A stretch of DNA of 64,000 nucleotides from Haliclystus octoradiatus (Eukaryota > Cnidaria > Staurozoa > Stauromedusae > Haliclystidae), in assembly GCA_916610825.1 (NCBI GenBank), contig OU744452.1, forward strand, positions 17,447,103-17,511,102, written 5' to 3'. Shown in pieces: positions 1 through 27,400 of this stretch. The notes below the pieces were generated by a model. The model made no database searches. It saw only the letters and a list, made by a program, of their open reading frames with translations, and had not been told where the DNA came from. A program made the translations under genes and the position numbers. Every line of letters starts with the position of its first letter. The first letter of the stretch is position 1.

Positions 1-459
1 CGCGTCAAGGCACAAGGGCTGGTGTAGTGACTTTCAGCTACTATGCCAAAATGAACATCAAAATGTCAGACCACGACAATGTTGCAGACTTTCAAGATGC
101 AGTTGACCAGTTACCGCTGATGGGATCAACAACACGAATTGACACAGGTTTGAAGCTGGTGGGTGACGAGATGTTTTCACCAAGCAACGGAGCGCAACCA
201 AGTTCAACTAACCTGCTGATTTTGCTGACAGACGGATCTCAAACTAAAGGTGCAGACGCTGTGGATCCTGGAGTGGTCGCCAGAGAACTTCGGGAACGTG
301 GCATCAAGATGATTGTCATTGGTATTGGAGCTGGAGTCAATAAAACAGAATTAAGCGGATTGGCTGGAAGCGAAAAGAGTGTCTATTATGCCACCTCGTT
401 TGACGAGCTAAAATCAGCATCATTTGTGGGCAATGTCTCTGCTCGATCATGTAAAGAAG
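1..459 (+). CDS. vWA exon A0 (partial at window edge)
   Basis: Type A vWA exon lacking its first 123 bases, so the DxSxS strand is outside the window. Codons are read from position 3 (RQGTRAGVV). The Thr loop (STTRID) and TDG motif are present. The donor GAAG|GTGAGT is phase 1. The following intron has a private base (GTGCG for GTGGG near 505). Confidence 0.95.
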
Positions 460-3400
460 GTGAGTTATTTAAAGTTTTTGTATTTGTGGTGTAAGTATTT
501 ATTTGTGCGTTTGAACAATAACGCTTCATCCTACTGTTTGGCAATATATCCTCTGCATTCAAAATTGTTTTCTTCTCATAAATTATTGTCATTAATATTT
601 CCAAATTTACTTCGATTTTTAGTGGAGAAAGTGGAAGAGACAGAATGCAATGGTTTGGCAGATATCGGATTTCTTGTGGACTCGTCTGGTAGTCTCAGGA
701 ACGAATACTTCAAAGAAAAGAACTTTGTGAAAAGTCTGAGTAGAGCCTTGAAAATTGGTCCTGGAATGAGTCAAGTCGGAGTTGTCCTCTTCAGTCACAA
801 TGCAGAATTGAAAATTAAACTATCTGATCACAATAACATTGATTCGTTCGACAAAGCTGTTGATGATTTGCCTCTACTTGGTTCGACAACACGTATAGAC
901 CTTGCATTGAAAGTTGCATACGATGAAATGTTCACCGAGAGCAACGGGGCTCGCAGGAACGTACCAAAAGTGCTTGTGCTTTTGACAGACGGGGAACAAA
1001 CGCAAGCCAGTGATTCTGTGTCTCCTGTTCTTGCGGCTACTCCTTTCCACGAGGCGGACATTAAAGTGATTGTGATCGGCATTGGTTCTGGCGTCAAACC
1101 GGCTCAGCTTGAAGACGTTGTCAAGAGCCGCAAAGATCTGTACCTGGCTGAGAACTTTGATGAATTGATATCTGACGATTTTGTCAGGAATATCACAAAA
1201 TCATCTTGTGACAAGACAGTAGGTAAGTGTGCTTGGGTATTGACATGAATCAGTTGCAGTGACGATGAAGTTTTGCTGTTTTAATGTGAATAGGATTACG
1301 TTATGGTTGATGTGATATGTGAAAATTTCACGTGTTAATGACATCAGCTGATATGTGTTTGTATTTTCTTTAGAGGCTTCTTGCAAAAGTCAGCCGTTGA
1401 ATATTGGCTTCCTTGTAGATTCATCTGGTAGCCTTCGCAACAGCTATGGCAAAGAAAAGGACTTTGTGAAATCTCTCTCGTCAGCATTTGGTTTGTCGCG
1501 TCAAGGCACAAGGGCTGGTGTAGTGACTTTCAGCTACTATGCCAAAATGAACATCAAAATGTCAGACCACGACAATGTTGCAGACTTTCAAGATGCAGTT
1601 GACCAGTTACCGCTGATGGGATCAACAACACGAATTGACACAGGTTTGAAGCTGGTGGGTGACGAGATGTTTTCACCAAGCAACGGAGCGCAACCAAGTT
1701 CAACTAACCTGCTGATTTTGCTGACAGACGGATCTCAAACTAAAGGTGCAGACGCTGTGGATCCTGGAGTGGTCGCCAGAGAACTTCGGGAACGTGGCAT
1801 CAAGATGATTGTCATTGGTATTGGAGCTGGAGTCAATAAAACAGAATTAAGCGGATTGGCTGGAAGCGAAAAGAGTGTCTATTATGCCACCTCGTTTGAC
1901 GAGCTAAAATCAGCATCATTTGTGGGTAATGTCTCTGCTCGATCATGTAAAGAAGGTGAGTTATTTAAAGTTTTTGTATTTGTGGTGTAAGTATTTATTT
2001 GTGGGTTTGAACAATAACGCTTCATCCTACTGTTTGGCAATATATCCTCTGCATTCAAAATTGTTTTCTTCTCATAAATTATTGTCATTAATATTTCCAA
2101 ATTTACTTCGATTTTTAGTGGAGAAAGTGGAAGAGACAGAATGCAATGGTTTGGCAGATATCGGATTTCTTGTGGACTCGTCTGGTAGTCTCAGGAACGA
2201 ATACTTCAAAGAAAAGAACTTTGTGAAAAGTCTGAGTAGAGCCTTGAAAATTGGTCCTGGAATGAGTCAAGTCGGAGTTGTCCTCTTCAGTCACAATGCA
2301 GAATTGAAAATTAAACTATCTGATCACAATAACATTGATTCGTTCAACAAAGCTGTTGATGATTTGCCTCTACTTGGTTCGACAACACGTATAGACCTTG
2401 CATTGAAAGTTGCATACGATGAAATGTTCACCGAGAGCAACGGGGCTCGCAGGAACGTACCAAAAGTGCTTGTGCTTTTGACAGACGGGGAACAAACGCA
2501 AGCAAGTGATTCTGTGTCTCCTGTTCTTGCGGCTGCTCCTTTCCACGAGGCGGACATTAAAGTGATTGTGATCGGCATTGGTTCTGGCGTCAAACCGGCT
2601 CAGCTTGAAGACGTTGTCAAGAGCCGCAAAGATCTGTACCTGGCTGAGAACTTTGATGAATTGATATCTGACGATTTTGTCAGGAATATCACAAAATCAT
2701 CTTGTGACAAGACAGTAGGTAAGTGTGCTTGGGTATTGACATGAATCAGTTGCAGTGACGATGAAGTTTTGCTGTTTTAATGTGAATAGGATTACGTTAT
2801 GGTTGATGTGATATGTGAAAATTTCACGTGTTAATGGCATCAGCTGATATGTGTTTGTATTTTCTTTAGAGGCTTCTTGCAAAAGTCAGCCGTTGAATAT
2901 TGGCTTCCTTGTAGATTCATCTGGTAGCCTTCGCAACAGCTATGGCAAAGAGAAGGACTTTGTGAAATCTCTCTCGTCAGCATTTGGTTTGTCGCGTCAA
3001 GGCACAAGGGCTGGTGTAGTGACTTTCAGCTACTATGCCAAAATGAACATCAAAATGTCAGACCACGACAATGTTGCAGACTTTCAAGATGCAGTTGACC
3101 AGTTACCGCTGATGGGATCAACAACACGAATTGACACAGGTTTGAAGCTGGTGGGTGACGAGATGTTTTCACCAAGCAACGGAGCGCAACCAAGTTCAAC
3201 TAACCTGCTGATTTTGCTGACAGACGGATCTCAAACTAAAGGTGCAGACGCTGTGGATCCTGGAGTGGTCGCCAGAGAACTTCGGGAACGTGGCATCAAG
3301 ATGATTGTCATTGGTATTGGAGCTGGAGTCAATAAAACAGAATTAAGCGGATTGGCTGGAAGCGAAAAGAGTGTCTATTATGCCACCTCGTTTGACGAGC

Positions 3401-6400
3401 TAAAATCAGCATCATTTGTGGGCAATGTCTCTGCTCGATCATGTAAAGAAGGTGAGTTATTTAAAGTTTTTGTATTTGTGGTGTAAGTATTTATTTGTGG
3501 GTTTGAACAATAACGCTTCATCCTACTGTTTGGCAATATATCCTGGATTCAAAATTGTTTTCTTCTCATATATTATTGTCATTAATATTTCCAAATTTAC
3601 TTCGATTTTTAGTGGAGAAAGTGGAAGAGACAGAATGCAATGGTTTGGCAGATATCGGATTTCTTGTGGACTCGTCTGGTAGTCTCAGGAACGAATACTT
3701 CAAAGAAAAGAACTTTGTGAAAAGTCTGAGTAGAGCCTTGAAAATTGGTCCTGGAATGAGTCAAGTCGGAGTTGTCCTCTTCAGTCACAATGCAGAATTG
3801 AAAATTAAACTATCTGATCACAATAACATTGATTCGTTCGACAAAGCTGTTGATGATTTGCCTCTACTTGGTTCGACAACACGTATAGACCTTGCATTGA
3901 AAGTTGCATACGATGAAATGTTCACCGAGAGCAACGGGGCTCGCAGGAACGTACCAAAAGTGCTTGTGCTTTTGACAGACGGGGAACAAACGCAAGCAAG
4001 TGATTCTGTGTCTCCTGTTCTTGCGGCTGCTCCTTTCCACGAGGCGGACATTAAAGTGATTGTGATCGGCATTGGTTCTGGCGTCAAACCGGCTCAGCTT
4101 GAAGACGTTGTCAAGAGCCGCAAAGATCTGTACCTGGCTGTGAACTTTGATGAATTGATATCTGACGATTTTGTCAGGAATATCACAAAATCATCTTGTG
4201 ACAAGACAGTAGGTAAGTGTGCTTGGGTATTGACATGAATCAGTTGCAGTGAGGATGAAGTTTTGCTGTTTTAATGTGAATAGGATTACGTTATGGTTGA
4301 TGTGATATGTGAAAATTTCACGTGTTAATGACATCAGCTGATATGTGTTTGTATTTTCTTTAGAGGCTTCTTGCAAAAGTCAGCCGTTGAATATTGGCTT
4401 CCTTGTAGATTCATCTGGTAGCCTTCGCAACAGCTATGGCAAAGAGAAGGACTTTGTGAAATCTCTCTCGTCAGCATTTGGTTTGTCGCGTCAAGGCACA
4501 AGGGCTGGTGTAGTGACTTTCAGCTACTATGCCAAAATGAACATCAAAATGTCAGACCACGACAATGTTGCAGACTTTCAAGATGCAGTTGACCAGTTAC
4601 CGCTGATGGGATCAACAACACGAATTGACACAGGTTTGAAGCTGGTGGGTGACGAGATGTTTTCACCAAGCAACGGAGCGCAACCAAGTTCAACTAACCT
4701 GCTGATTTTGCTGACAGACGGATCTCAAACTAAAGGTGCAGACGCTGTGGATCCTGGAGTGGTCGCCAGAGAACTTCGGGAACGTGGCATCAAGATGATT
4801 GTCATTGGTATTGGAGCTGGAGTCAATAAAACAGAATTAAGCGGATTGGCTGGAAGCGAAAAGAGTGTCTATTATGCCACCTCGTTTGACGAGCTAAAAT
4901 CAGCATCATTTGTGGGCAATGTCTCTGCTCGATCATGTAAAGAAGGTGAGTTATTCAAAGTTTTTGTATTTGTGGTGTAAGTATTTATTTGTGGGTTTGA
5001 ACAATAACGCTTCATCCTACTGTTTGGCAATATATCCTCTGCATTCAAAATTGTTTTCTTCTCATAAATTATTGTCATTAATATTTCCAAATTTACTTCG
5101 ATTTTTAGTGGAGAAAGTGGAAGAGACAGAATGCAATGGTTTGGCAGATATCGGATTTCTTGTGGACTCGTCTGGTAGTCTCAGGAACGAATACTTCAAA
5201 GAAAAGAACTTTGTGAAAAGTCTGAGTAGAGCCTTGAAAATTGGTCCTGGAATGAGTCAAGTCGGAGTTGTCCTCTTCAGTCACAATGCAGAATTGAAAA
5301 TTAAACTATCTGATCACAATAACATTGATTTGTTCGACAAAGCTGTTGATGATTTGCCTCTACTTGGTTCGACAACACGTATAGACCTTGCATTGAAAGT
5401 TGCATACGATGAAATGTTCACCGAGAGCAACGGGGCTCGCAGAAACGTACCAAAAGTGCTTGTGCTTTTGACAGACGGGGAACAAACGCAAGCAAGTGAT
5501 TCTGTGTCTCCTGTTCTTGCGGCTGCTCCTTTCCACGAGGCGGACATTAAAGTGATTGTGATCGGCATTGGTTCTGGCGTCAAACCGGCTCAGCTTGAAG
5601 ACGTTGTCAAGAGCCGCAAAGATCTGTACCTGGCTGAGAACTTTGATGAATTGATATCTGACGATTTTGTCAGGAATATCACAAAATCATCTTGTGACAA
5701 GACAGTAGGTAAGTGTGCTTGGGTATTGACATGAATCAGTTGCAGTGACGATGAAGTTTTGCTGTTTTAATGTGAATAGGATTACGTTATGGTTGATGTG
5801 ATATGTGAAAATTTCACGTGTTAATGACATCAGCTGATATGTGTTTGTATTTTCTTTAGAGGCTTCTTGCAAAAGTCAGCCGCTGAATATTGGCTTCCTT
5901 GTAGATTCATCTGGTAGCCTTCGCAACAGCTATGGCAAAGAGAAGGACTTTGTGAAATCTCTCTCGTCAGCATTTGGTTTGTCGCGTCAAGGCACAAGGG
6001 CTGGTGTAGTGACTTTCAGCTACTATGCCAAAATGAACATCAAAATGTCAGACCATGACAATGTTGCAGACTTTCAAGATGCAGTTGACCAGTTACCGCT
6101 GATGGGATCAACAACACGAATTGACACAGGTTTGAAGCTGGTGGGTGACGAGATGTTTTCACCAAGCAACGGAGCGCAACCAAGTTCAACTAACCTGCTG
6201 ATTTTGCTGACAGACGGATCTCAAACTAAAGGTGCAGACGCTGTGGATCCTGGAGTGGTCGCCAGAGAACTTCGGGAACGTGGCATCAAGATGATTGTCA
6301 TTGGTATTGGAGCTGGAGTCAATAAAACAGAATTAAGCGGATTGGCTGGAAGCGAAAAGAGTGTCTATTATGCCACCTCGTTTGACGAGCTAAAATCAGC

Positions 6401-9400
6401 ATCATTTGTGGGCAATGTCTCTGCTCGATCATGTAAAGAAGGTGAGTTATTTAAAGTTTTTGTATTTGTGGTGTAAGTATTTATTTGTGGGTTTGAACAA
6501 TAACGCTTCATCCTACTGTTTGGCAATATATCCTGCATTCAAAATTGTTTTCTTCTCATATATTATTGTCATTAATATTTCCAAATTTACTTCGATTTTT
6601 AGTGGAGAAAGTGGAAGAGACAGAATGCAATGGTTTGGCAGATATCGGATTTCTTGTGGACTCGTCTGGTAGTCTCAGGAACGAATACTTCAAAGAAAAG
6701 AACTTTGTGAAAAGTCTGAGTAGAGCCTTGAAAATTGGTCCTGGAATGAGTCAAGTCGGAGTTGTCCTCTTCAGTCACAATGCAGAATTGAAAATTAAAC
6801 TATCTGATCACAATAACATTGATTCGTTCGACAAAGCTGTTGATGATTTGCCTCTACTTGGTTCGACAACACGTATAGACCTTGCATTGAAAGTTGCATA
6901 CGATGAAATGTTCACCGAGAGCAACGGGGCTCGCAGGAACGTACCAAAAGTGCTTGTGCTTTTGACAGACGGGGAACAAACGCAAGCAAGTGATTCTGTG
7001 TCTCCTGTTCTTGCGGCTGCTCCTTTCCACGAGGCGGACATTAAAGTGATTGTGATCGGCATTGGTTCTGGCGTCAAACCGGCTCAGCTTGAAGACGTTG
7101 TCAAGAGCCGCAAAGATCTGTACCTGGCTGAGAACTTTGATGAATTGATATCTGACGATTTTGTCAGGAATATCACAAAATCATCTTGTGACAAGACAGT
7201 AGGTAAGTGTGCTTGGGTATTGACATGAATCAGTTGCAGTGACGATGAAGTTTTGCTTTTTTAATGTGAATAGGATTACGTTATGGTTGATGTGATATGT
7301 GAAAATTTCACGTGTTAATGACATCAGCTGATATGTGTTTGTATTTTCTTTAGAGGCTTCTTGCAAAAGTCAGCCGTTGAATATTGGCTTCCTTGTAGAT
7401 TCATCTGGTAGCCTTCGCAACAGCTATGGCAAAGAGAAGGACTTTGTGAAATCTCTCTCGTCAGCATTTGGTTTGTCGCGTCAAGGCACAAGGGCTGGTG
7501 TAGTGACTTTCAGCTACTATGCCAAAATGAACATCAAAATGTCAGACCACGACAATGTTGCAGACTTTCAAGATGCAGTTGACCAGTTACCGCTGATGGG
7601 ATCAACAACACGAATTGACACAGGTTTGAAGCTGGTGGGTGACGAGATGTTTTCACCAAGCAACGGAGCGCAACCAAGTTCAACTAACCTGCTGATTTTG
7701 CTGACAGACGGATCTCAAACTAAAGGTGCAGACGCTGTGGATCCTGGAGTGGTCGCCAGAGAACTTCGGGAACGTGGCATCAAGATGATTGTCATTGGTA
7801 TTGGAGCTGGAGTCAATAAAACAGAATTAAGCGGATTGGCTGGAAGCGAAAAGAGTGTCTATTATGCCACCTCGTTTGACGAGCTAAAATCAGCATCATT
7901 TGTGGGCAATGTCTCTGCTCGATCATGTAAAGAAGGTGAGTTATTTAAAGTTTTTGTATTTGTGGTGTAAGTATTTATTTGTGGGTTTGAACAATAACGC
8001 TTCATCCTACTGTTTGGCAATATATCCTGCATTCAAAATTGTTTTCTTCTCATATATTATTGTCATTAATATTTCCAAATTTACTTCGATTTTTAGTGGA
8101 GAAAGTGGAAGAGACAGAATGCAATGGTTTGGCAGATATCGGATTTCTTGTGGACTCGTCTGGTAGTCTCAGGAACGAATACTTCAAAGAAAAGAACTTT
8201 GTGAAAAGTCTGAGTAGAGCCTTGAAAATTGGTCCTGGAATGAGTCAAGTCGGAGTTGTCCTCTTCAGTCACAATGCAGAATTGAAAATTAAACTATCTG
8301 ATCACAATAACATTGATTCGTTCGACAAAGCTGTTGATGATTTGCCTCTACTTGGTTCGACAACACGTATAGACCTTGCATTGAAAGTTGCATACGATGA
8401 AATGTTCACCGAGAGCAACGGGGCTCGCAGGAACGTACCAAAAGTGCTTGTGCTTTTGACAGACGGGGAACAAACGCAAGCAAGTGATTCTGTGTCTCCT
8501 GTTCTTGCGGCTGCTCCTTTCCACGAGGCGGACATTAAAGTGATTGTGATCGGCATTGGTTCTGGCGTCAAACCGGCTCAGCTTGAAGACGTTGTCAAGA
8601 GCCGCAAAGATCTGTACCTGGCTGAGAACTTTGATGAATTGATATCTGACGATTTTGTCAGGAATATCACAAAATCATCTTGTGACAAGACAGTAGGTAA
8701 GTGTGCTTGGGTATTGACATGAATCAGTTGCAGTGACGATGAAGTTTTGCTGTTTTAATGTGAATATGATTACGTTATGGTTGATGTGATATGTGAAAAT
8801 TTCACGTGTTAATGACATCAGCTGATATGTGTTTGTATTTTCTTTAGAGGCTTCTTGCAAAAGTCAGCCGTTGAATATTGGCTTCCTTGTAGATTCATCT
8901 GGTAGCCTTCGCAACAGCTATGGCAAAGAGAAGGACTTTGTGAAATCTCTCTCGTCAGCATTTGGTTTGTCGCGTCAAGGCACAAGGGCTGGTGTAGTGA
9001 CTTTCAGCTACTATGCCAAAATGAACATCAAAATGTCAGACCACGACAATGTTGCAGACTTTCAAGATGCAGTTGACCAGTTACCGCTGATGGGATCAAC
9101 AACACGAATTGACACAGGTTTGAAGCTGGTGGGTGACGAGATGTTTTCACCAAGCAACGGAGCGCAACCAAGTTCAACTAACCTGCTGATTTTGCTGACA
9201 GACGGATCTCAAACTAAAGGTGCAGACGCTGTGGATCCTGGAGTGGTCGCCAGAGAACTTCGGGAACGTGGCATCAAGATGATTGTCATTGGTATTGGAG
9301 CTGGAGTCAATAAAACAGAATTAAGCGGATTGGCTGGAAGCGAAAAGAGTGTCTATTATGCCACCTCGTTTGACGAGCTAAAATCAGCATCATTTGTGGG

Positions 9401-12400
9401 CAATGTCTCTGCTCGATCATGTAAAGAAGGTGAGTTATTTAAAGTTTTTGTATTTGTGGTGTAAGTATTTATTTGTGGGTTTGAACAATAACGCTTCATC
9501 CTACTGTTTGGCAATATATCCTGCATTCAAAATTGTTTTCTTCTCATATATTATTGTCATTAATATTTCCAAATTTACTTCGATTTTTAGTGGAGAAAGT
9601 GGAAGAGACAGAATGCAATGGTTTGGCAGATATCGGATTTCTTGTGGACTCGTCTGGTAGTCTCAGGAACGAATACTTCAAAGAAAAGAACTTTGTGAAA
9701 AGTCTGAGTAGAGCCTTGAAAATTGGTCCTGGAATGAGTCAAGTCGGAGTTGTCCTCTTCAGTCACAATGCAGAATTGAAAATTAAACTATCTGATCACA
9801 ATAACATTGATTCGTTCGACAAAGCTGTTGATGATTTGCCTCTACTTGGTTCGACAACACGTATAGACCTTGCATTGAAAGTTGCATACGATGAAATGTT
9901 CACCGAGAGCAACGGGGCTCGCAGGAACGTACCAAAAGTGCTTGTGCTTTTGACAGACGGGGAACAAACGCAAGCAAGTGATTCTGTGTCTCCTGTTCTT
10001 GCGGCTGCTCCTTTCCACGAGGCGGACATTAAAGTGATTGTGATCGGCATTGGTTCTGGCGTCAAACCGGCTCAGCTTGAAGACGTTGTCAAGAGCCGCA
10101 AAGATCTGTACCTGGCTGAGAACTTTGATGAATTGATATCTGACGATTTTGTCAGGAATATCACAAAATCATCTTGTGACAAGACAGTAGGTAAGTGCGC
10201 TTGGGTATTGACATGAATCAGTTGCAGTGACGATGAAGTTTTGCTGTTTTAATGTGAATAGGATTACGTTATGGTTGATGTGATATGTGAAAATTTCACG
10301 TGTTAATGACATCAGCTGATATGTGTTTGTATTTTCTTTAGAGGCTTCTTGCAAAAGTCAGCCGTTGAATATTGGCTTCCTTGTAGATTCATCTGGTAGC
10401 CTTCGCAACAGCTATGGCAAAGAGAAGGACTTTGTGAAATCTCTCTCGTCAGCATTTGGTTTGTCGCGTCAAGGCACAAGGGCTGGTGTAGTGACTTTCA
10501 GCTACTATGCCAAAATGAACATCAAAATGTCAGACCACGACAATGTTGCAGACTTTCAAGATGCAGTTGACCAGTTACCGCTGATGGGATCAACAACACG
10601 AATTGACACAGGTTTGAAGCTGGTGGGTGACGAGATGTTTTCACCAAGCAACGGAGCGCAACCAAGTTCAACTAACCTGCTGATTTTGCTGACAGACGGA
10701 TCTCAAACTAAAGGTGCAGACGCTGTGGATCCTGGAGTGGTCGCCAGAGAACTTCGGGAACGTGGCATCAAGATGATTGTCATTGGTATTGGAGCTGGAG
10801 TCAATAAAACAGAATTAAGCGGATTGGCTGGAAGCGAAAAGAGTGTCTATTATGCCACCTCGTTTGACGAGCTAAAATCAGCATCATTTGTGGGCAATGT
10901 CTCTGCTCGATCATGTAAAGAAGGTGAGTTATTCAAAGTTTTTGTATTTGTGGTGTAAGTATTTATTTGTGGGTTTGAACAATAACGCTTCATCCTACTG
11001 TTTGGCAATATATCCTCTGCATTCAAAATTGTTTTCTTCTCATAAATTATTGTCATTAATATTTCCAAATTTACTTCGATTTTTAGTGGAGAAAGTGGAA
11101 GAGACAGAATGCAATGGTTTGGCAGATATCGGATTTCTTGTGGACTCGTCTGGTAGTCTCAGGAACGAATACTTCAAAGAAAAGAACTTTGTGAAAAGTC
11201 TGAGTAGAGCCTTGAAAATTGGTCCTGGAATGAGTCAAGTCGGAGTTGTCCTCTTCAGTCACAATGCAGAATTGAAAATTAAACTATCTGATCACAATAA
11301 CATTGATTCGTTCGACAAAGCTGTTGATGATTTGCCTCTACTTGGTTCGACAACACGTATAGACCTTGCATTGAAAGTTGCATACGATGAAATGTTCACC
11401 GAGAGCAACGGGGCTCGCAGGAACGTACCAAAAGTGCTTGTGCTTTTGACAGACGGGGAACAAACGCAAGCAAGTGATTCTGTGTCTCCTGTTCTTGCGG
11501 CTGCTCCTTTCCACGAGGCGGACATTAAAGTGATTGTGATCGGCATTGGTTCTGGCGTCAAACCGGCTCAGCTTGAAGACGTTGTCAAGAGCCGCAAAGA
11601 TCTGTACCTGGCTGAGAACTTTGATGAATTGATATCTGACGATTTTGTCAGGAATATCACAAAATCATCTTGTGACAAGACAGTAGGTAAGTGTGCTTGG
11701 GTATTGACATGAATCAGTTGCAGTGACGATGAAGTTTTGCTGTTTTAATGTGAATAGGATTACGTTATGGTTGATGTGATATGTGAAAATTTCACGTGTT
11801 AATGACATCAGCTGATATGTGTTTGTATTTTCTTTAGAGGCTTCTTGCAAAAGTCAGCCGTTGAATATTGGCTTCCTTGTAGATTCATCTGGTAGCCTTC
11901 GCAACAGCTATGGCAAAGAGAAGGACTTTGTGAAATCTCTCTCGTCAGCATTTGGTTTGTCGCGTCAAGGCACAAGGGCTGGTGTAGTGACTTTCAGCTA
12001 CTATGCCAAAATGAACATCAAAATGTCAGACCACGACAATGTTGCAGACTTTCAAGATGCAGTTGACCAGTTACCGCTGATGGGATCAACAACACGAATT
12101 GACACAGGTTTGAAGCTGGTGGGTGACGAGATGTTTTCACCAAGCAACGGAGCGCAACCAAGTTCAACTAACCTGCTGATTTTGCTGACAGACGGATCTC
12201 AAACTAAAGGTGCAGACGCTGTGGATCCTGGAGTGGTCGCCAGAGAACTTCGGGAACGTGGCATCAAGATGATTGTCATTGGTATTGGAGCTGGAGTCAA
12301 TAAAACAGAATTAAGCGGATTGGCTGGAAGCGAAAAGAGTGTCTATTATGCCACCTCGTTTGACGAGCTAAAATCAGCATCATTTGTGGGCAATGTCTCT

Positions 12401-15400
12401 GCTCGATCATGTAAAGAAGGTGAGTTATTCAAAGTTTTTGTATTTGTGGTGTAAGTATTTATTTGTGGGTTTGAACAATAACGCTTCATCCTACTGTTTG
12501 GCAATATATCCTCTGCATTCAAAATTGTTTTCTTCTCATAAATTATTGTCATTAATATTTCCAAATTTACTTCGATTTTTAGTGGAGAAAGTGGAAGAGA
12601 CAGAATGCAATGGTTTGGCAGATATCGGATTTCTTGTGGACTCGTCTGGTAGTCTCAGGAACGAATACTTCAAAGAAAAGAACTTTGTGAAAAGTCTGAG
12701 TAGAGCCTTGAAAATTGGTCCTGGAATGAGTCAAGTCGGAGTTGTCCTCTTCAGTCACAATGCAGAATTGAAAATTAAACTATCTGATCACAATAACATT
12801 GATTCGTTCGACAAAGCTGTTGATGATTTGCCTCTACTTGGTTCGACAACACGTATAGACCTTGCATTGAAAGTTGCATACGATGAAATGTTCACCGAGA
12901 GCAACGGGGCTCGCAGGAACGTACCAAAAGTGCTTGTGCTTTTGACAGACGGGGAACAAACGCAAGCAAGTGATTCTGTGTCTCCTGTTCTTGCGGCTGC
13001 TCCTTTCCACGAGGCGGACATTAAAGTGATTGTGATCGGCATTGGTTCTGGCGTCAAACCGGCTCAGCTTGAAGACGTTGTCAAGAGCCGCAAAGATCTG
13101 TACCTGGCTGAGAACTTTGATGAATTGATATCTGACGATTTTGTCAGGAATATCACAAAATCATCTTGTGACAAGACAGTAGGTAAGTGTGCTTGGGTAT
13201 TGACATGAATCAGTTGCAGTGACGATGAAGTTTTGCTGTTTTAATGTGAATAGGATTACGTTATGGTTGATGTGATATGTGAAAATTTCACGTGTTAATG
13301 ACATCAGCTGATATGTGTTTGTATTTTCTTTAGAGGCTTCTTGCAAAAGTCAGCCGTTGAATATTGGCTTCCTTGTAGATTCATCTGGTAGCCTTCGCAA
13401 CAGCTATGGCAAAGAGAAGGACTTTGTGAAATCTCTCTCGTCAGCATTTGGTTTGTCGCGTCAAGGCACAAGGGCTGGTGTAGTGACTTTCAGCTACTAT
13501 GCCAAAATGAACATCAAAATGTCAGACCACGACAATGTTGCAGACTTTCAAGATGCAGTTGACCAGTTACCGCTGATGGGATCAACAACACGAATTGACA
13601 CAGGTTTGAAGCTGGTGGGTGACGAGATGTTTTCACCAAGCAACGGAGCGCAACCAAGTTCAACTAACCTGCTGATTTTGCTGACAGACGGATCTCAAAC
13701 TAAAGGTGCAGACGCTGTGGATCCTGGAGTGGTCGCCAGAGAACTTCGGGAACGTGGCATCAAGATGATTGTCATTGGTATTGGAGCTGGAGTCAATAAA
13801 ACAGAATTAAGCGGATTGGCTGGAAGCGAAAAGAGTGTCTATTATGCCACCTCGTTTGACGAGCTAAAATCAGCATCATTTGTGGGCAATGTCTCTGCTC
13901 GATCATGTAAAGAAGGTGAGTTATTTAAAGTTTTTGTATTTGTGGTGTAAGTATTTATTTGTGGGTTTGAACAATAACGCTTCATCCTACTGTTTGGCAA
14001 TATATCCTCTGCATTCAAAATTGTTTTCTTCTCATAAATTATTGTCATTAATATTTCCAAATTTACTTCGATTTTTAGTGGAGAAAGTGGAAGAGACAGA
14101 ATGCAATGGTTTGGCAGATATCGGATTTCTTGTGGACTCGTCTGGTAGTCTCAGGAACGAATACTTCAAAGAAAAGAACTTTGTGAAAAGTCTGAGTAGA
14201 GCCTTGAAAATTGGTCCTGGAATGAGTCAAGTCGGAGTTGTCCTCTTCAGTCACAATGCAGAATTGAAAATTAAACTATCTGATCACAATAACATTGATT
14301 CGTTCGACAAAGCTGTTGATGATTTGCCTCTACTTGGTTCGACAACACGTATAGACCTTGCATTGAAAGTTGCATACGATGAAATGTTCACCGAGAGCAA
14401 CGGGGCTCGCAGGAACGTACCAAAAGTGCTTGTGCTTTTGACAGACGGGGAACAAACGCAAGCAAGTGATTCTGTGTCTCCTGTTCTTGCGGCTGCTCCT
14501 TTCCACGAGGCGGACATTAAAGTGATTGTGATCGGCATTGGTTCTGGCGTCAAACCGGCTCAGCTTGAAGACGTTGTCAAGAGCCGCAAAGATCTGTACC
14601 TGGCTGAGAACTTTGATGAATTGATATCTGACGATTTTGTCAGGAATATCACAAAATCATCTTGTGACAAGACAGTAGGTAAGTGTGCTTGGGTATTGAC
14701 ATGAATCAGTTGCAGTGACGATGAAGTTTTGCTGTTTTAATGTGAATAGGATTACGTTATGGTTGATGTGATATGTGAAAATTTCACGTGTTAATGACAT
14801 CAGCTGATATGTGTTTGTATTTTCTTTAGAGGCTTCTTGCAAAAGTCAGCCGTTGAATATTGGCTTCCTTGTAGATTCATCTGGTAGCCTTCGCAACAGC
14901 TATGGCAAAGAGAAGGACTTTGTGAAATCTCTCTCGTCAGCATTTGGTTTGTCGCGTCAAGGCACAAGGGCTGGTGTAGTGACTTTCAGCTACTATGCCA
15001 AAATGAACATCAAAATGTCAGACCACGACAATGTTGCAGACTTTCAAGATGCAGTTGACCAGTTACCGCTGATGGGATCAACAACACGAATTGACACAGG
15101 TTTGAAGCTGGTGGGTGACGAGATGTTTTCACCAAGCAACGGAGCGCAACCAAGTTCAACTAACCTGCTGATTTTGCTGACAGACGGATCTCAAACTAAA
15201 GGTGCAGAGGCTGTGGATCCTGGAGTGGTCGCCAGAGAACTTCGGGAACGTGGCATCAAGATGATTGTCATTGGTATTGGAGCTGGAGTCAATAAAACAG
15301 AATTAAGCGGATTGGCTGGAAGCGAAAAGAGTGTCTATTATGCCACCTCGTTTGACGAGCTAAAATCAGCATCATTTGTGGGCAATGTCTCTGCTCGATC

Positions 15401-18400
15401 ATGTAAAGAAGGTGAGTTATTTAAAGTTTTTGTATTTGTGGTGTAAGTATTTATTTGTGGGTTTGAACAATAACGCTTCATCCTACTGTTTGGCAATATA
15501 TCCTGCATTCAAAATTGTTTTCTTCTCATATATTATTGTCATTAATATTTCCAAATTTACTTCGATTTTTAGTGGAGAAAGTGGAAGAGACAGAATGCAA
15601 TGGTTTGGCAGATATCGGATTTCTTGTGGACTCGTCTGGTAGTCTCAGGAACGAATACTTCAAAGAAAAGAACTTTGTGAAAAGTCTGAGTAGAGCCTTG
15701 AAAATTGGTCCTGGAATGAGTCAAGTCGGAGTTGTCCTCTTCAGTCACAATGCAGAATTGAAAATTAAACTATCTGATCACAATAACATTGATTCGTTCG
15801 ACAAAGCTGTTGATGATTTGCCTCTACTTGGTTCGACAACACGTATAGACCTTGCATTGAAAGTTGCATACGATGAAATGTTCACCGAGAGCAACGGGGC
15901 TCGCAGGAACGTACCAAAAGTGCTTGTGCTTTTGACAGACGGGGAACAAACTCAAGCAAGTGATTCTGTGTCTCCTGTTCTTGCGGCTGCTCCTTTCCAC
16001 GAGGCGGACATTAAAGTGATTGTGATCGGCATTGGTTCTGGCGTCAAACCGGCTCAGCTTGAAGACGTTGTCAAGAGCCGCAAAGATCTGTACCTGGCTG
16101 AGAACTTTGATGAATTGATATCTGACGATTTTGTCAGGAATATCACAAAATCATCTTGTGACAAGACAGTAGGTAAGTGTGCTTGGGTATTGACATGAAT
16201 CAGTTGCAGTGAGGATGAAGTTTTGCTGTTTTAATGTGAATAGGATTACGTTATGGTTGATGTGATATGTGAAAATTTCACGTGTTAATGACATCAGCTG
16301 ATATGTGTTTGTATTTTCTTTAGAGGCTTCTTGCAAAAGTCAGCCGTTGAATATTGGCTTCCTTGTAGATTCATCTGGTAGCCTTCGCAACAGCTATGGC
16401 AAAGAGAAGGACTTTGTGAAATCTCTCTCGTCAGCATTTGGTTTGTCGCGTCAAGGCACAAGGGCTGGTGTAGTGACTTTCAGCTACTATGCCAAAATGA
16501 ACATCAAAATGTCAGACCACGACAATGTTGCAGACTTTCAAGATGCAGTTGACCAGTTACCGCTGATGGGATCAACAACACGAATTGACACAGGTTTGAA
16601 GCTGGTGGGTGACGAGATGTTTTCACCAAGCAACGGAGCGCAACCAAGTTCAACTAACCTGCTGATTTTGCTGACAGACGGATCTCAAACTAAAGGTGCA
16701 GACGCTGTGGATCCTGGAGTGGTCGCCAGAGAACTTCGGGAACGTGGCATCAAGATGATTGTCATTGGTATTGGAGCTGGAGTCAATAAAACAGAATTAA
16801 GCGGATTGGCTGGAAGCGAAAAGAGTGTCTATTATGCCACCTCGTTTGACGAGCTAAAATCAGCATCATTTGTGGGCAATGTCTCTGCTCGATCATGTAA
16901 AGAAGGTGAGTTTTTCAAAGTTTTTGTATTTGTGGTGTAAGTATTTATTTGTGGGTTTGAACAATAACGCTTCATCCTACTGTTTGGCAATATATCCCCG
17001 GGGGGGGTACTTGAGTACATTTCAGACGGGGGTGTGCCATTTTGGTTTTTCGGTAAGCACCCTAAAATTGCAGCTTCCCTAGAAAGCTATACCCCAAAAT
17101 TGCACTTCCTTAGAAAACTATACCCCAAAATTGTAGAAAGCAGGAAAATTTCCACAAGCCTGGGCGAACTTGTAAATCAACATCTGTGAAGTTATGCCCT
17201 TTTAGAAAAATACAAATATGTAAGATTAAGAAATTGGGTAGGCATTAATATTCGACAATAACATTATTTTCTGGAATTTTCTCATTAAAAAACATAGACA
17301 TTGGCATTAAGCTCGAAATGTTCTTTATCGTACATTTTCTATTCAAAGGCAGGACCTAATCACTAGCGCCATGAAAATTCATATTGGCTCACTGGGCTCT
17401 GAAGTTGAGCAATGATGAATGATGATAATAATTATGGAAATCTCAAGTGAAGAAATCTTTCATTCATTAGTTGAGAAGATAGGCCCAACTGATTAACAAT
17501 ACACAATAGAGAATTTCAAATGAACAGCTAAATAAGTTTATTATGACTGTTCTGTTTAGTGTTGTGAATTGCTGTAATTTCAAATGAACAGCTAAATAAG
17601 TTTATTGTGACTGCTCTGTTTCGTGTTATGAATTGCTGTAATGACTGATATATGATAATTCTGGAAGTGTTGGGATTTTCATTCAATGAAGGATCATCAA
17701 TTATTATCCTATCATAGGTTTGTTAATAATCAAGGAATATTTTTAGCAGGACTCAGAACAGAGAGAGGTGTGCAGGTGTAGGCCCCTGGCATCCTATTAT
17801 ATTATGGGATGTGACTTGACTATGCCAACATACCAACCAAAATGATAAATCACCATTACAATCTCGGTACAATCATACAATGTAGTATCTACAGTTACGA
17901 TTCGATAGGCCGCAGTCAGTATCCTACCTAGAGTGGAAACTCTAACGAGCCCTTTTTATCAACGAAGTTAAATAAAATCAAACACACACACAACACTAAA
18001 TGTGTGCCTGTGGCTCGTACCTGACTGGAAGCCTGGCGCTCTCCAGCCTCTCCTTTCTCTCTCTCCTCCTGGAAGGACTACAATTATGTATCCAGCATAC
18101 CAAAATCCCGGTGTTGGATCATTAGCTCAAGCAGGCTATGCACCGGGCCTTGCACATCCACATCCACAATTATATATTTGATAAATAACATTTTGCTTTC
18201 TAGAGATTCGTCAAATATACCATTGTGCATGCACAATAAATAAAGAAGGCCTGCTTCACATGCCCTTATGGTTCAAACTCGTTCTCAGCTGAGAAAATAA
18301 TGGAAAATGAGGCTGGTTACGTCGGGGAGTGGTGGAATTGAGGGGAAATTGGAACTTGGCAAATTACTTGAAAATCCAACATAACAATTGAAAAAAAACA

Positions 18401-21400
18401 GAACTTTTAATAATAGAAAAATATTGGAATAATGAAGTAAATTTTGAATTTTGCCAAATCTTGGACCCCAAAATTGCACTTCCTTAGAATAAATACCCCC
18501 AAAATTGCAGGCAAATTGTTAAAATGATACCCAAAAAAAATGGCACACCCCCGTATAGCGACTATATGGAAGTACCCCCCCCCGGGAATATATCCTCTGC
18601 ATTCAAAATTGTTTTCTTCTCATAAATTATTGTCATTAATATTTCCAAATTTACTTCGATTTTTAGTGGAGAAAGTGGAAGAGACAGAATGCAATGGTTT
18701 GGCAGATATCGGATTTCTTGTGGACTCGTCTGGTAGTCTCAGGAACGAATACTTCAAAGAAAAGAACTTTGTGAAAAGTCTGAGTAGAGCCTTGAAAATT
18801 GGTCCTGGAATGAGTCAAGTCGGAGTTGTCCTCTTCAGTCACAATGCAGAATTGAAAATTAAACTATCTGATCACAATAACATTGATTCGTTCGACAAAG
18901 CTGTTGATGATTTGCCTCTACTTGGTTCGACAACACGTATAGACCTTGCATTGAAAGTTGCATACGATGAAATGTTCACCGAGAGCAACGGGGCTCGCAG
19001 GAACGTACCAAAAGTGCTTGTGCTTTTGACAGACGGGGAACAAACGCAAGCAAGTGATTCTGTGTCTCCTGTTCTTGCGGCTGCTCCTTTCCACGAGGCG
19101 GACATTAAAGTGATTGTGATCGGCATTGGTTCTGGCGTCAAACCGGCTCAGCTTGAAGACGTTGTCAAGAGCCGCAAAGATCTGTACCTGGCTGAGAACT
19201 TTGATGAATTGATATCTGACGATTTTGTCAGGAATATCACAAAATCATCTTGTGACAAGACAGTAGGTAAGTGTGCTTGGGTATTGACATGAATCAGTTG
19301 CAGTGACGATGAAGTTTTGCTTTTTTAATGTGAATAGGATTACGTTATGGTTGATGTGATATGTGAAAATTTCACGTGTTAATGACATCAGCTGATATGT
19401 GTTTGTATTTTCTTTAGAGGCTTCTTGCAAAAGTCAGCCGTTGAATATTGGCTTCCTTGTAGATTCATCTGGTAGCCTTCGCAACAGCTATGGCAAAGAG
19501 AAGGACTTTGTGAAATCTCTCTCGTCATCATTTGGTTTGTCGCGTCAAGGCACAAGGGCTGGTGTAGTGACTTTCAGCTACTATGCCAAAATGAACATCA
19601 AAATGTCAGACCACGACAATGTTGCAGACTTTCAAGATGCAGTTGACCAGTTACCGCTGATGGGATCAACGACACGAATTGACACAGGTTTGAAGCTGGT
19701 GGGTGACGAGATGTTTTCACCAAGCAACGGAGCGCAACCAAGTTCAACTAACCTGCTGATTTTGCTGACGGACGGCTCTCAAACTAAAGGTGCAGACGCT
19801 GTGGATCCTGGAGTGGTCGCCAGAAAACTTCGGGAACGTGGCATCAAGATGATTGTCGTTGGTATCGGAGCTGGAGTCAACAAAACAGAATTAAACGGAT
19901 TGGCTGGAAGCGAAAAGAATGTCTATTATGCCAGCTCATTTGATGTGCTAAAATCGGAATCATTTGTGGGCAATGTCTCTGCTCGATCATGCAAAGAAGG
20001 TGAGTGCGTATCAATAATTTATACATTTTCCTAATGTTTTGTATCCAGATGCATTATGGATTGTCATGCTGTCGGGACGTTGTTATAATATTACAAATAA
20101 GAAACAGTAACTGCTGCCATTATCTTTTGTATTGAAAGAACAAATAAGGAAGTTGATAATAAACCATGAAGAGATTTATTTAAAGTACACATAAAATAAA
20201 TCAGAAAATCTTATATCATATTTTAACTCCTGTGGAATAACAACTTTTGGTTTTCTCAGTAGCCCCAAAACCTGTATGCCACTAATAATTATATAAGCAT
20301 TATACGTAATTAGAATTGATAATTATTATGTTCTATTTCCAGTTTCATCTAACTCAACCTATCCATCAGATATATTATATTTACTTGATTCATCTTCAAA
20401 AATCCCAAGTGACGTATTCAAGCAATACAAATTTATTATTTCGCAAATAATCAATACAAGGCGTTACCGTAATCGTGATGATCATGTTGGTCTTATGGAG
20501 TATAGTAGTACATCAGTATTACTACATCGGTTAAGTGTATTACCAATCAATAATATTGCCTATGATCGTCGCGGTGGAATACCTAACTTAAAAGAAGCCT
20601 TAGTATCTGCTTATAAAACCTTGTATTCTTATGTTGGTGGTAGTCGTAGAGGCGTTCCTAAAACATTAATATTATTCACAAGTTCTTCTGATGAAGAGAT
20701 TCTCCGTCATCACGATTCGTTCAAGCCGTTTATTGAATCTGGTACACGGATTATTATTATTCAAATAAAATCTCCAACAATACCATTGGATGGAAAGCCT
20801 TGGAAGGGTATGGTATCAAAATTGAAACCTGATCTAAACTTGGATGTTAATCTTGGTAATAACACAAATGACAAGATCGGTACGTATGGTTACTATAATA
20901 GAGTTGATATAGAATTACATTGTAAATTACGTCAAATTTTGAAGCAATGGTGTCTGACAATTTGTGCGTATTTGCAACATAAAATGCAATGCAATTCTCG
21001 GATCATGTCAAAAATTTTAAAATTTCACACCTGTCAGAATTGCTCAATTCTCATTCATAGAAATCAATCATTTTATTCTCCTGGGATCATGCTTTTGAAC
21101 CTCAGAAGACAAATATTGCCATCTTCAGCAAACCATATTATTTCTTTCTTTTTTCATAGTTTTACCAATTTTGCACCGAAAAATTGATATTATTTATCTT
21201 TTTGACCAAAATATAAGTGAAAAATGATACAGAAACTCCTGTTTTAATGATATCAGATCCTTGTTTTCGTGGACAGCTTCATGCTATCGAAAACAAAGCC
21301 CCTCCCAATCCAACATAATTATGGTGTTTATTCGAAAAATCGAAAAGCAACTTAGAAGTTCTATCATTCAAATGAACGTAGAAATATATTACAAAAGGAA

Positions 21401-24400
21401 AAAGGTATCAACAACTTTTAAGATGTGTTGTAGAATATTCAAGATGCTCCTGCAGTTTCATAGTATAGAATTTAAGTTTCTGAATATAATATTTTTGTTG
21501 AGGTTTACCTAGAAAAAAGTTGAATTTGCTTGGTACAATAATCATATCAAAGGGTTCCTGCCCTGAGGCGGTGTTTGTGTTCTCCAATCCTTCCATGCGA
21601 GATGTTCTGACACTCAAAAGAATCAGATGGTATTAACACATAGGGCGAGTATGTTTAAAGCTTGCGAGTGTCTCTCAATATCCCGCCTACAATAAATAGA
21701 GAACACAAGTGCAGCTGCCGGGCAGAAAACCTTTGCTGGAACAAAACGAGAAAATATACTACTTTGAAAGCGATTTGTTTTTGTATAACTTTTATTGATT
21801 TGAGCAGTTTTCTCCTATTTGTCCAGTAATCACTACTAACGCCAAAACCATGAAAATACCATGAACGTGTTGTGTTAACAGCATGAAAATGTAAAAAAGT
21901 GAAAACCACAAACTTTTCAAGTCATGGAAAAGTTTGAAAATCATGAAAACATCCATATTCCCGATGTTAAATGCGAAAATGCTATGAAAACGCAATGAAA
22001 TTTCACGATTTTTTCTTGGTTTTGGTGTCAGGACAACACGCGATGATCAACTCAAACATTTGTTTTTCTCTTTTATAGATAACTATTATGATCGTCCTTG
22101 CACAGTTCCATTGGATACTGCCTTCGTTATTGGTGCTTCTGCACAATCACCGTCAAAGTTCATTCTAACCAAATTAATGATTCGCAGTATTGTTAGCAAA
22201 TTATCTAAAAAATCATCATTTAATTCAGCTTTTTTAACTTTGGTTAATTCACAACCTCGTATAGATGCTACATCAGATCAATCCTATGATGCCATCTCTT
22301 TCATTGATAACATGATCAAATTGTCACCAAGGCAACAACAATCAAGTGTCTCATCATTATTAGAATCAATCCTTTATGCCAAGTATAACCTACTATACCC
22401 AAATGCGATGGCAAGACGCAATACTAATTCAGCGCGTGTTGTTTTCGTTGTCCTTGACGACAGCCAATCATTAGATAGTCAAACTATTGCTTTGTCAAGC
22501 ATTGCAAAAGATTTAGAACAGGATAACATACGGTTGGTTTTACTTATTTCTGGCAAGTCACATGACATGAGAGTGGTGAATTCATTGGTCGTTAGTCCAT
22601 TCGATATATTTAGACATGATTCAAATATTGATGATCAAACTGTTCAGAAAATTATTATGGCTACATGTTCATTGATAGGTAAGCATTAATCATCGTAATC
22701 TTTGTCTTTAAAACCATACTCGGCATACTAAAGTTTACCCATGCTTTATCTTTTTCTTTTCATAAATATTTGTAGCAAAATAATAACGTTTCTTTAAAAT
22801 TCGATTTATTTATATTAAGAATAGAATTTTTTAGGGTGTCAATTTGTATGTTCTAGGCTCGGTCAAAACGAATTATTCAAAGAAACATTCACCTGATTCC
22901 AAGAAACATTTTCTTGATTTCAAAAAATATTTACTTGATTCCAAGAAACATCTATTTGATTTCAAGAAATGTTTACTTGATTCCAAAAAGTGTTCAGTTG
23001 ATTTCAAGAAACATTTTCTTGATTTCCAGAAATATTTACTTGATTCCAAGAAACATCTATTTTATTTCAAGAAATATTTTCTTGATTCGAAAAGGCATTC
23101 AGTTGATTCAAAGAAACATTTACTTGATTTCAAGAAGCATGTAGTTGATTTCAGGAAATATTTACTTGATCCAAGAAACCTTTCCTTGGACTTCAGTAAA
23201 TAATGTTCTTGTTTAAGCAAATTCGAGTTTGTCTGGTCTGCTTTCTAGAAAAACGAGTTATTTCAAGAAATATGCTCTTTCTTCAAGCACCTGATATTTG
23301 AATAAAAGCTCATCACACATTTACTGTGAAGGCTCAAGCTTTCAACAGTTCACTTGTGTCCTCCAACATGCCTTGTGTAGTATTATACATGAATGCAAAC
23401 ATTTGCAAGCGCGTGATAACCCTTTTACAATGAAACAAATTTCAGAATTAAGTTTGTTTATATTGTTGAAGGTTGTTTGAATTTTGAATTAATTATTTAA
23501 TTTCAATTCAATGTTTTTTTTACTTACTATTGTCCTCGTATTAAGTGAATACTTCACAATTTTACTCTTTCTTAAAATAATTGAGACAGCTTTTGTTGAA
23601 ATCATTTCTTCAATAATACGTTGTAACAATAGTTTCCTATATTCTTCTTCAGCTTGAAGCCTCTATAAATAAGCAGTATAAAATTATAATATGTTGTAGT
23701 TTCCTATTCTTCCTCACCTTTGACGACATTTTATTGTCAAATTTACCGATGAATTATTGAAATGGTTTGTTCTACCATTTCCAAAAGCATGGACCAACCA
23801 ATCAAATTGCAGTATTACGTTCGAATTTATATGACTTCATATTTTAGAATAAAATTTCACATGTATTAAAACCCTTGCATACGCCGTTCTGTACATGCAC
23901 CGATCCTATTTCAGTTGAAAACGATTTTAGATCGACTACATGAATAATTTGTTTCAAACTACATTGTGAGAAATTCATGCATGACTTTACACCTGATAAT
24001 TTTCGAATATATCATAATAGAATCGACATGAGTACAGAACAGCGTATGAATTAGGCCTTTGCTTCCTAGAGATATGTAATGAAATCGCAAAAAGAAAAGT
24101 ATCCAAAATGCAAGCCGACATCAAATGCGAATAAAAAATTTGATTTTGATTTTTTTTTTAATATTTATTTAATAAATATTCTGCTATGCATATACATAGT
24201 TCAAAAATGATTTTAAAAATGAATTCTCAATCGATAACATAACGTAGCTTATAAAAAAAAAAATTTATATCAAATAATTGAAAAACTATCTACAACATTT
24301 TTTTTAATATTTTATATATGTGCGTGGTCCAACACCCTAGCCACTACGCTATTTAAATTGTTTCTGTTGTCAAATTTTGATTTGATGTATTTTACCCTTT

Positions 24401-27400
24401 GTAGGTCGCCCAATAATCCCCGTAGAATATCCCAATGTGTGTGAAAAACCAATGTACGTTGGTATAATAATGGATTCATCATCAACGTCAACAAAGCATT
24501 TTATCACGCAAAAAGTTCTGATCCAAAAGATTGCTGATAGCATACGTTTATCACGTCAACATTCATGCATAAGTGTAATGGCACATTCGTCACTTAATAC
24601 TTATAAACTATTTCGTTATGAAGATGGCTGTAGTGCTTCTAATATACGTTCTGGAATAGATGCTATACAGATGACAACGAAAACAAATACGCTGGAAGAA
24701 AAACTAACAATGATTACAGAAATGAATTCACCTCGTTATGGCATAACTAGAGATATACCTAAATTAATTATTGTTTTAATAGAAGCTAACGACACTCGTT
24801 CTGATAGTGTGCTAGAGAATTATGCTAGAGAAGCCAAAAAGAAAGGTCTGACCGTTGTTTTTGTTCAAATGGATAATGAGAAGTCGTATAGTGGCTTCCA
24901 GGATATAGCGTCACCATACCGAAGTGTTTACAAAACACGTGGATATTATCATCGCCTACCGGAACTAGCAAAGACTATCGTTAGACGAAATTGTTTGTCT
25001 CCACGTAAGTAGTTATTTGTGAGTATTCATGTAATCCCCCTTTTGTTCCTTCTGTGTCTCGCTAATTCTTTAATCATTAGCAAAATAGATGACAACATAC
25101 GATAAACGGACAATATATTACATTAGGTTGATTATACCCTCCAAGAGCCTCAAGGAAGACAAGCTCCAATCATATTGGATTGCCCCCCCTCATAAACTAA
25201 AATGAATGACTTGGGTCCTCTGTTTCATCAAATTTTGTAATAGCTCTGATGGCTCCAGAATCTAGTCCAAATAACATATTAGGGATGTTTAGATTTTTTG
25301 ACGAGACGAGACCTTTCACGAGTTTTATTTTGTGTAGCGTGGAGCTGAGTGGTATTCGTAATACATTTGATTGAACGTTTAGAAAACTCGTCAAACAGAA
25401 TAAACGACATCGATGTTTAGAAAAAAGACACTGCAGTAACATGAATATAAACATTTAATTGTGATACCTTACCTAAGTAAGAGCAGAATTCAGAAAAATA
25501 GTGCAAATTACAATAGTTGGTAATATTGCGGGTATGGATTTGGGGAAGAAAACAGGCTAGTCACTGTAAATACTTTGAAAACATATTGTTTTGAATAAGA
25601 TATACTTGAATTTAACTTCATTAATGTAACTTTAATGACAATATTTCATAATTTTTTACAGCCACAATGCAGACATGTCAACTAAGAGCTGATATAGTAT
25701 TTGCCATTGACATAAGCCCAGGATCAGATCTAAAACAACAACAGATGCTAGCCAAAGATCTTGCACGACGACTTGATCTTTTTAATCAAAGTAGAGTTGG
25801 TTTGATATCATATAACAGCAGATCCAGTTCATTAATGACATTTTCAAATCAACAAACGAATGGAGTATTCAATATGTTGCTCGAATCATTAAGACCAGCT
25901 CTTCCTGGTCGTCGGTTCAACGAAGCTCTCAGAGAAGCGTACGTTACATTCTTTGATGTAGCTCTTACAAATGAGATAATAAACAATGAACAACGGCAAA
26001 AAGTATTAATTTTGTTAGCATCTGGTCCTCAAAGTGGTAATACTAATGCCATGTCTATTGCTGATACTGTCCGTCCATTACAAGATGTTGCTACATTTAT
26101 TTTAACTGTGCAGTTTAATAATACCAATACATACCAGGACGAAGAAGATCTCATAAAGATTGCAACGACAAGACAAAGTGCTATATTGAAGTCTAAAAAT
26201 GAAACTATTAGTGATGTATCAAAGAGGATTGCAAATGAAATATGCTACAATTCTAAACAAGGTAATATTCCATCATATGAAATTTACACGAAATGTCGAA
26301 ATAACTTGGAAAATTTTCGAATGCTATTGTAGTGACTTGATTAGCTAACTCCTGTGTTGGGATCACGCAAGCAAACAAAAATTACAAATAATTATCGGTT
26401 TCGGTAAAATATGAGAACATTTCGGGTCAAAATAACAAGAGTTTAAGAAAATATATGTTTGAAATCAAAAAATGTGTTCTTGCTTTGTGGACAAGTCTAT
26501 ACCATATATTCTTGCTTCATACAACAACGTATTACTTTTAAGAAAACATTGTGTTAGTGTAATTTTACTCGAAATCTCATTTATTTTGATAGAAAAATTT
26601 TCTTAAGTGGAGAAAAAATATCTAACCTAAAAAAGCTGTGGTATCCCCGGGGAAGCTTCCATACTTTTGGTACGGGGACATTCTTATATTAAAGAGTACA
26701 TTTTTCAAAATTCAGAAATGTTTGATGTATAAATTTTATTTTAATGGAAATTTTTGTTTATTCGCATTTAAATCTTTCACTTAAATTATTCTCAAGGAGT
26801 ATCTTTCCTTTTTTTAAAAAAATATAAGGATATCTTTTTCATGATCTGAAACATTTTAATGGTCATTTTCCAAAAGTTCTATTTGAACAACCCCGTCGAA
26901 GTGCAATGGAAGATAGATAGATACCCCCTGGGTGTGATATATATAGAATCCGAGTTTTAGAAATATCTTGTTAGAATAATAATATGCTTTATATTTTTAT
27001 TATTGCAGCTCCATCATCTCTCAATAATTGTCAGCTACCTTTTGATATTGTTTTTGTTGTTGATTCATCTGCAAGTTTAATCAATGATTATGCCAAACAA
27101 ATTACGTTAGTTGAAAGCTTAGTAAACCGTTTCAACTTATCGCCGTCTGGTAGCAGAGCTGCAGTTGTTATATACAGTAATACAGCCCATGTTGGTGTAG
27201 ATTTTACAACAGGTCAAGATATTTCCACATTTAAGCAAGCAATGAGAAAATTACCTTTTATTGGTAGAAATACAAGATTAGATGTTGCCTTATTACTATC
27301 ACGTTCATTATTAACAAAAAGACAATATGGATCGCGTGATTATGCACGTAAACTTGTCATTGTACTAACTGATGGAGAACAAAACGAAGTATTGGGTGCA

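Follow-up and report, generated by a model that had tools for sequence, protein, structure and literature searches.

Near-identical tandem vWA domains, uniform through their introns, in a predicted giant gene of Haliclystus octoradiatus

Introduction

Long rows of vWA domains are already known from collagen VI and Nematostella, and coding repeats that are uniform through their introns are known from LPA KIV-2 in humans. In this study, we examined a tandem array of vWA exons with both properties in the staurozoan Haliclystus octoradiatus. The window, the stretch of 64,000 nucleotides that was analyzed, is C8:17447103-17511102 on chromosome 7. The array probably belongs to one giant gene for a secreted, vWA-rich matrix protein, in which a pair of repeat domains appears to have been amplified and kept uniform, and the product would be a multivalent rod.

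The KIV-2 unit consists of two exons and two introns repeated in tandem within one gene, and highly similar units account for up to 70% of the protein; a title cited in the same source speaks of high exon and intron conservation (PMC11462820, in part). KIV-2 encodes a Kringle domain in a 5.6-kb unit, is present in 1 to approximately 40 units and has demonstrated polymorphism (same parts of PMC11462820), whereas the Haliclystus unit encodes a vWA pair in 1.5 kb and was seen in one assembly. Near-identical units of exon and intron inside one gene, the mark of a coding variable number tandem repeat of the KIV-2 type, were found here as well, with a predicted single transcript.

Collagen VI alpha-3 shares a row of vWA domains with the Haliclystus protein. 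Collagen VI has a collagen triple helix, in contrast to the Haliclystus model, which has none. The mussel byssus protein PTMP1 contains two vWA domains per chain and is the best match of the Haliclystus A domain in both sequence and fold. However, its 454-residue chain with two vWA stretches has no array and no domain-by-domain correspondence, and the relation is one of similarity only. Among cnidarians, vWA repeats without collagen occur in a WAP/vWFA repeat protein of Nematostella (PMC12549020). This protein differs in its WAP domains, and near-identical units, introns and fasciclin go unmentioned in the available parts of PMC12549020. Narrow literature searches did not find the combination of a long vWA row and intron-uniform coding repeats, twice in one genome and with a fasciclin end.

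Results and Discussion

Extent of the repeat array

The window was analyzed together with 40 kb upstream and 10 kb downstream, 114 kb in total, and negative coordinates denote positions upstream of the window. The genome copy used has 261,861,806 bases in 33 contigs. In its mitochondrial contig of 18,316 bp, the 15,000 bases analyzed showed AGR where arginine is read, a DNA-polymerase-like open frame and two tRNA genes, and the order of genes looks medusozoan. The published assembly is reported as 262 Mb in 33 scaffolds with an 18.3-kb mitochondrion, an N50 of 28,991,210 bp and an N90 of 20,733,292 bp; the total in a figure legend, 261,898,343 bp, is 36.5 kb above our copy (PMC9975415, in part).

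A preliminary description, made from the letters of the window, counted 25 vWA domains in positions 1-19999. Exon mapping gave the same number for this interval (12 B exons and 13 A exons, one of which is partial) and placed the start of the array upstream of the window, at C8:17444738. The whole array measures 22.4 kb (-2364 to 19999) and holds 14 A and 14 B exons, which makes 28 repeat domains with one vWA each. The repeat unit is a B-A exon pair with its introns, mostly 1494 or 1496 bp long and encoding two domains. Exact 24-mers of the window recur 1494, 1496 and 2990 bases apart, within spans of approximately 1-16950 and 18590-19740. A exons are 582 bp and B exons 600 bp, except for B1 (597 bp), and the introns from A4 to A13 are 161 or 163 bp (A-to-B) and 151 bp (B-to-A). 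A DNA search of the genome with one unit gave two matches, both inside the array; this search skipped common words and gives a lower bound.

Uniformity of exons and introns

The array had been described as twelve units of about 1.5 kb that are almost the same base for base, introns included. Among the 12 complete units (A1-A12), pairs differ at only 0-10 columns, gap columns counted, with no difference at all between units 9 and 10. On average, pairs differed at 4.75-6.4 columns for lags of 1-8 units and at 6.7-8.0 columns for lags of 9-11 (6 pairs). A 2-bp intron insertion is present in units 2, 3, 5, 9, 10 and 11 and absent from units 1, 4, 6, 7, 8 and 12, so that two intron types are interleaved. 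At the protein level, 12 of the 14 A domains are identical, with one change in A12 (D126E) and eight in A14; the eleven A domains earlier said to differ by a single amino acid are A3-A13. Among the 14 B domains, nine share one sequence, a single change occurs in each of B3-B6, and B1 matches B4 at 93% identity.

Divergence was calculated for a core that excludes the edge copies A14 and B1, the first B-to-A intron and the A-to-B intron bearing a transposon. Mean pairwise divergence in the core was 0.159% for exons of the A type (13 copies), 0.179% for exons of the B type (13 copies), 0.995% for A-to-B introns (12 copies) and 0.78% for B-to-A introns (13 copies). Of 270 synonymous positions 8 were variable, compared to 5 of 906 nonsynonymous positions and 12 of 312 in the introns, the last count omitting a 2-bp indel; pN/pS was 0.19. 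Nonsynonymous changes were fewer than synonymous changes (Fisher, P=0.003) and intron changes (P=0.0001), whereas synonymous and intron sites did not differ (P=0.65). Since synonymous and intron sites are equally similar, the array is young or homogenized. Selection on the protein is not enough to explain uniform introns and acts on top of this process, since nonsynonymous changes are rarer than synonymous ones. The protein sequence is therefore constrained in addition to homogenization. The preliminary description argued that the introns are more uniform than purifying selection would leave them and that the array must be very young or under continuing conversion. This argument holds, given the equal similarity of introns and synonymous sites, the interleaved intron types and the partly divergent edge units.

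The two edge copies diverge mainly toward the outer sides of the array. In B1, 38 of 43 changed columns lie within the first 146 bp, and in A14, 15 of 17 base changes lie from base 353 on. This pattern is what unequal exchange or conversion should produce, though edge units that predate a burst of amplification could look alike.

The gene and its domains

All units had been assigned to one gene, and a single open frame with consistent splice phase agrees with this. The gene model, from which the first exon is left out, has 41 exons and 7,302 codons plus a stop, with no internal stop. GT-AG is found at all junctions between the 41 exons, and every vWA exon is in phase 1. The order of exons is two vWA, 28 repeats, five divergent vWA, four linkers and two fasciclin-domain exons, ending at 34413 (Table 1). 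Seven of the 35 vWA exons thus flank the array, two upstream and five downstream up to 27602. The flanking vWA and fasciclin domains go beyond the preliminary description, as do the rarity of nonsynonymous relative to synonymous changes and the distantly related second array described below.

The 28 repeats make up approximately 76% of the modeled protein, which has a calculated mass of 790 kDa without its first exon, 51 N-glycosylation motifs, 75 cysteines and no RGD motif. Readings as a collagen or a membrane protein were rejected, since the longest Gly-X-Y run in the modeled 7,302 residues is 2 triplets and no membrane-like segment was found in them.

Table 1. Coordinates of the vWA array, the predicted gene and the inserted element
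Feature	Position	Strand	Remarks
N1/N2, two upstream vWA exons	-4948..-4316 and -3311..-2706
A2 vWA exon, 3' part	1..459 (whole exon -122..459)	+	array continues upstream to B1 at -2364
B3 vWA exon	623..1222	+
A3 vWA exon	1374..1955	+	representative A domain, structure modeled
Intron i1 of unit 3 (A-to-B)	1956..2118	+	representative; i1 core divergence 0.995%
B4 vWA exon	2119..2718	+	representative B domain
Intron i2 (B-to-A)	2719..2869	+	representative; i2 core divergence 0.78%
A4 to A13	2870..16905	+	10 A and 9 B exons (B5-B13); phase 1-1, introns 161/163 and 151 bp
Transposon-like insertion, 1.6 kb	16998..18586	+	in A13-B14 intron; terminal inverted repeats, 9-bp target duplication AATATATCC
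B14 vWA exon	18667..19266	+
A14 vWA exon	19418..19999	+	last repeat exon, partly divergent edge copy; 8 amino-acid and 17 base changes
vWA-C1, divergent	20343..20879	+	metal site broken, without cysteines
vWA-C2, very divergent	22079..22678	+	no Pfam match; assigned by exon size, position, phase, cysteines and alignment at 14% identity to A
vWA-C3, divergent	24405..25004	+	metal site broken
vWA-C4, divergent	25662..26261	+	metal site broken
vWA-C5	27009..27602	+	metal site intact (DSSAS)
Linker exon L1	27980..28012	+
Linker exon L2	28093..28118	+
Linker exon L3	28216..28338	+
Linker exon L4	31785..31977	+
FAS1 exon a	32546..32859	+	fasciclin domain 1
FAS1 exon b	33907..34413	+	end of fasciclin 1 (by eye), fasciclin 2, stop codon

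One A and one B domain scored 117 and 120 bits against Pfam VWA PF00092 (cut-off 23.8), and B1, N1, N2, C1, C3, C4 and C5 were also above the cut-off. Two exons matched Fasciclin in Pfam (E 3.3e-14 and 9.6e-24). Dozens of intact metal sites had been predicted, and the residues of the metal ion-dependent adhesion site (MIDAS; DxSxS, T, D) are present in all 28 repeat domains. By pattern, the site is intact in 31 of the 35 vWA exons, the others being vWA-C1 to C4. The flanking cysteine pair is found in 34 of the 35.

The A domain is modeled as a vWA fold of the PTMP1/collagen VI type. The model, made for A only from 8 window sequences, had a pLDDT of 89.7, and its best PDB match was PTMP1 (TM 0.89, 32% identity), with collagen VI alpha-3 and vWF A3 also matching. 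By sequence, PTMP1 ranked first and collagen VI alpha-3 second for the A domain, and the reverse was seen for the B domain. The A domain matched the two vWA stretches of PTMP1 with 70.4 and 68.9 bits; a one-to-one pairing with a single PTMP1 domain was rejected since both score alike. Collagen VI alpha-3 gave the highest whole-chain score for B (181 bits), which is summed over many domains, the best single domain reaching 29.6 bits. Against A, no single domain of collagen VI alpha-3 passed 1e-5.

A second array in the same genome

Another array lies at C10:~955-987 kb (region C10:933000-1002999) and consists of 16 tandem Kazal-vWA-vWA units, mostly 1651 or 1673 bp apart and all without stops. 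The Kazal-like exon was named by eye. As in the window array, the tandem units are uniform through their introns, with mean divergences of 0.75-1.3% in exons and 1.0-2.8% in introns (one ~6-kb intron left out). Its vWA proteins are only 23-31% identical to B, which indicates that the two arrays were homogenized separately. The arrays differ in composition, and also in constraint. The metal sites on C10 look degenerate by eye (DASEQ, GASGD), and pN/pS there is 0.66, which is not significant (P=0.15), whereas the window array has intact sites and a constrained sequence. An extra vWA exon at the edge of the C10 array follows the array consensus closely over its first 300 bases (95% identity, and 98% over bases 61-300) and then drops to 50% identity over the next 270, which marks a recombination break inside the exon. 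Open frames that look laminin-G- and EGF-like by eye were seen downstream of the C10 array.

Two distantly related intron-uniform vWA arrays in one cnidarian genome allow a test of how repeats stay uniform and what selection adds.

Amplification, uniformity and function of the repeats

Under the reading that we favor, a B-A pair would have been amplified and then held uniform by unequal crossing-over, gene conversion between neighboring units, or both, while selection would remove amino-acid changes from the repeat domains. The array would thus evolve much as the human LPA KIV-2 repeat does. A less likely possibility is that the array arose in a single recent burst and is now diverging passively, with no continuing homogenization. 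Divergence is low everywhere, as a burst would leave it, and the edge copies could be pre-burst units; however, the intermediate divergence of A14 and B1 suggests repeated events, without proving them. The same is suggested by units 9 and 10, which are identical although other units differ at up to 10 columns, by the interleaved intron types and by the C10 array, which shows the same pattern. The low number of informative sites also speaks for the burst, as does the lack of any four-gamete conflict among 5 informative columns of the 12 complete units.

This last result is one of several that weigh against continuing homogenization or against one secreted product. With 13 coding and 12 intron substitutions among the core units, a burst and continuing conversion are not separable. 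The exact copy number comes from a single assembly, and the joining of all units in one transcript is predicted from open frame and splice phase only. A search upstream for a signal-peptide exon found none; a candidate at -7761 was rejected because its splice creates a stop codon, and one at -11185 was weak and not accepted. Finally, the repeat exons have about double the GC content at third codon positions (GC3) seen in the gene's other vWA exons, which neither a burst nor conversion predicts simply.

The presumably secreted product would form a long, multivalent rod on which metal-dependent faces recur and bind collagen or some other ligand that is itself repeated. Our best guess is a rod of either the mesoglea or the attachment disc, where the fasciclin end would make an additional contact with the matrix. 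PTMP1 has been described as a link between collagens and other byssal components (PMC4597212, in part). The sea anemone Exaiptasia upregulates in its pedal disc two vWA-containing genes annotated as collagens (PMC6626399, in part). H. octoradiatus lives fixed to seaweed (PMC9975415, in part), and in H. tenuis the surface of the pedal disc is enlarged (PMC5088631, in part). The similarity to PTMP1 and collagen VI, the Exaiptasia pedal-disc genes and the attached life therefore favor a secreted matrix or attachment rod. Another possible explanation, which we consider unlikely, is that the repeat product is a component of cnidocysts, mucus or glands; the vWA-fasciclin composition and the similarity to PTMP1 and collagen VI fit matrix or attachment use, without excluding this reading. 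If the product sits in the attachment disc, it would also offer bioadhesion research a long natural polymer built from a single metal-dependent binding pair.

Near-identical tandem units are a known difficulty for assembly, but an artefact, whether by expansion of a shorter real array or by collapse of a longer one, is very improbable. The 114 kb contain no N, the HiFi assembly has 68-fold coverage and a contig N50 of 1.5 Mb (PMC9975415, in part), and most units carry distinguishing variants, one of them a transposon. The array clearly exists, and only its exact number is in question.

The number of units, and hence rod length, could change between alleles. More tentatively, Haliclystus may on two separate occasions have converted a vWA pair into a coding array that varies in copy number and stays uniform through active recombination. 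Individuals might then differ in the length and valency of a giant rod, adhesive or mesogleal, and these properties might respond fast to selection, which would give a cnidarian counterpart of human KIV-2. We regard this proposal as possible rather than probable.

Base composition at third positions

Measured in five of the 28 repeat exons, GC3 was 0.40-0.45; the remaining vWA exons in the gene, seven in number, gave 0.17-0.28. For one A and one B exon against these seven, the counts were 166/392 and 307/1383 (P=2e-14). Outside the gene, the closest paralogue (45% identity to B) had a GC3 of 0.34 and an actin exon 0.45. For tubulin, nine stop-free pieces gave 0.25-0.44 and one piece with a stop gave 0.28; tubulin row L036 was read on the wrong strand.

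GC-biased gene conversion was rejected as the cause because the measured array introns are not GC-rich (GC 0.276 and 0.351, compared to 0.32-0.33 in the flanks). In the share of two-fold codons ending in C, the repeats resemble actin and tubulin (0.54 vs 0.50), and the other vWA exons stand at 0.22. Translational selection was also rejected, since the overall codon usage of the repeats correlates with that of actin and tubulin at 0.19, compared to 0.57 for the other exons; the actin/tubulin codon comparison leaves out tubulin rows L031-L034 and L038.

Other features of the region

The longest open frame of the transposon-like insertion is 77 amino acids. Genome-wide, at least 51 matches were listed, itself and pieces included, with 40 of 142 candidates scored. 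A copy at C7:18140663-18142247 is 100% identical over 1,585 bases, which suggests that the element was recently mobile.

An intron tandem repeat with a 21-bp unit in 15 copies lies at 22875-23188, between vWA-C2 and vWA-C3. On another contig, at least 16 partial vWA matches were listed over about 140 kb (C2:33409262-33545971), some with in-frame stops. Downstream in the window, a homeodomain at 55594-55968 (Pfam E 2.6e-23), which we take to be Meox-like, is part of another gene.

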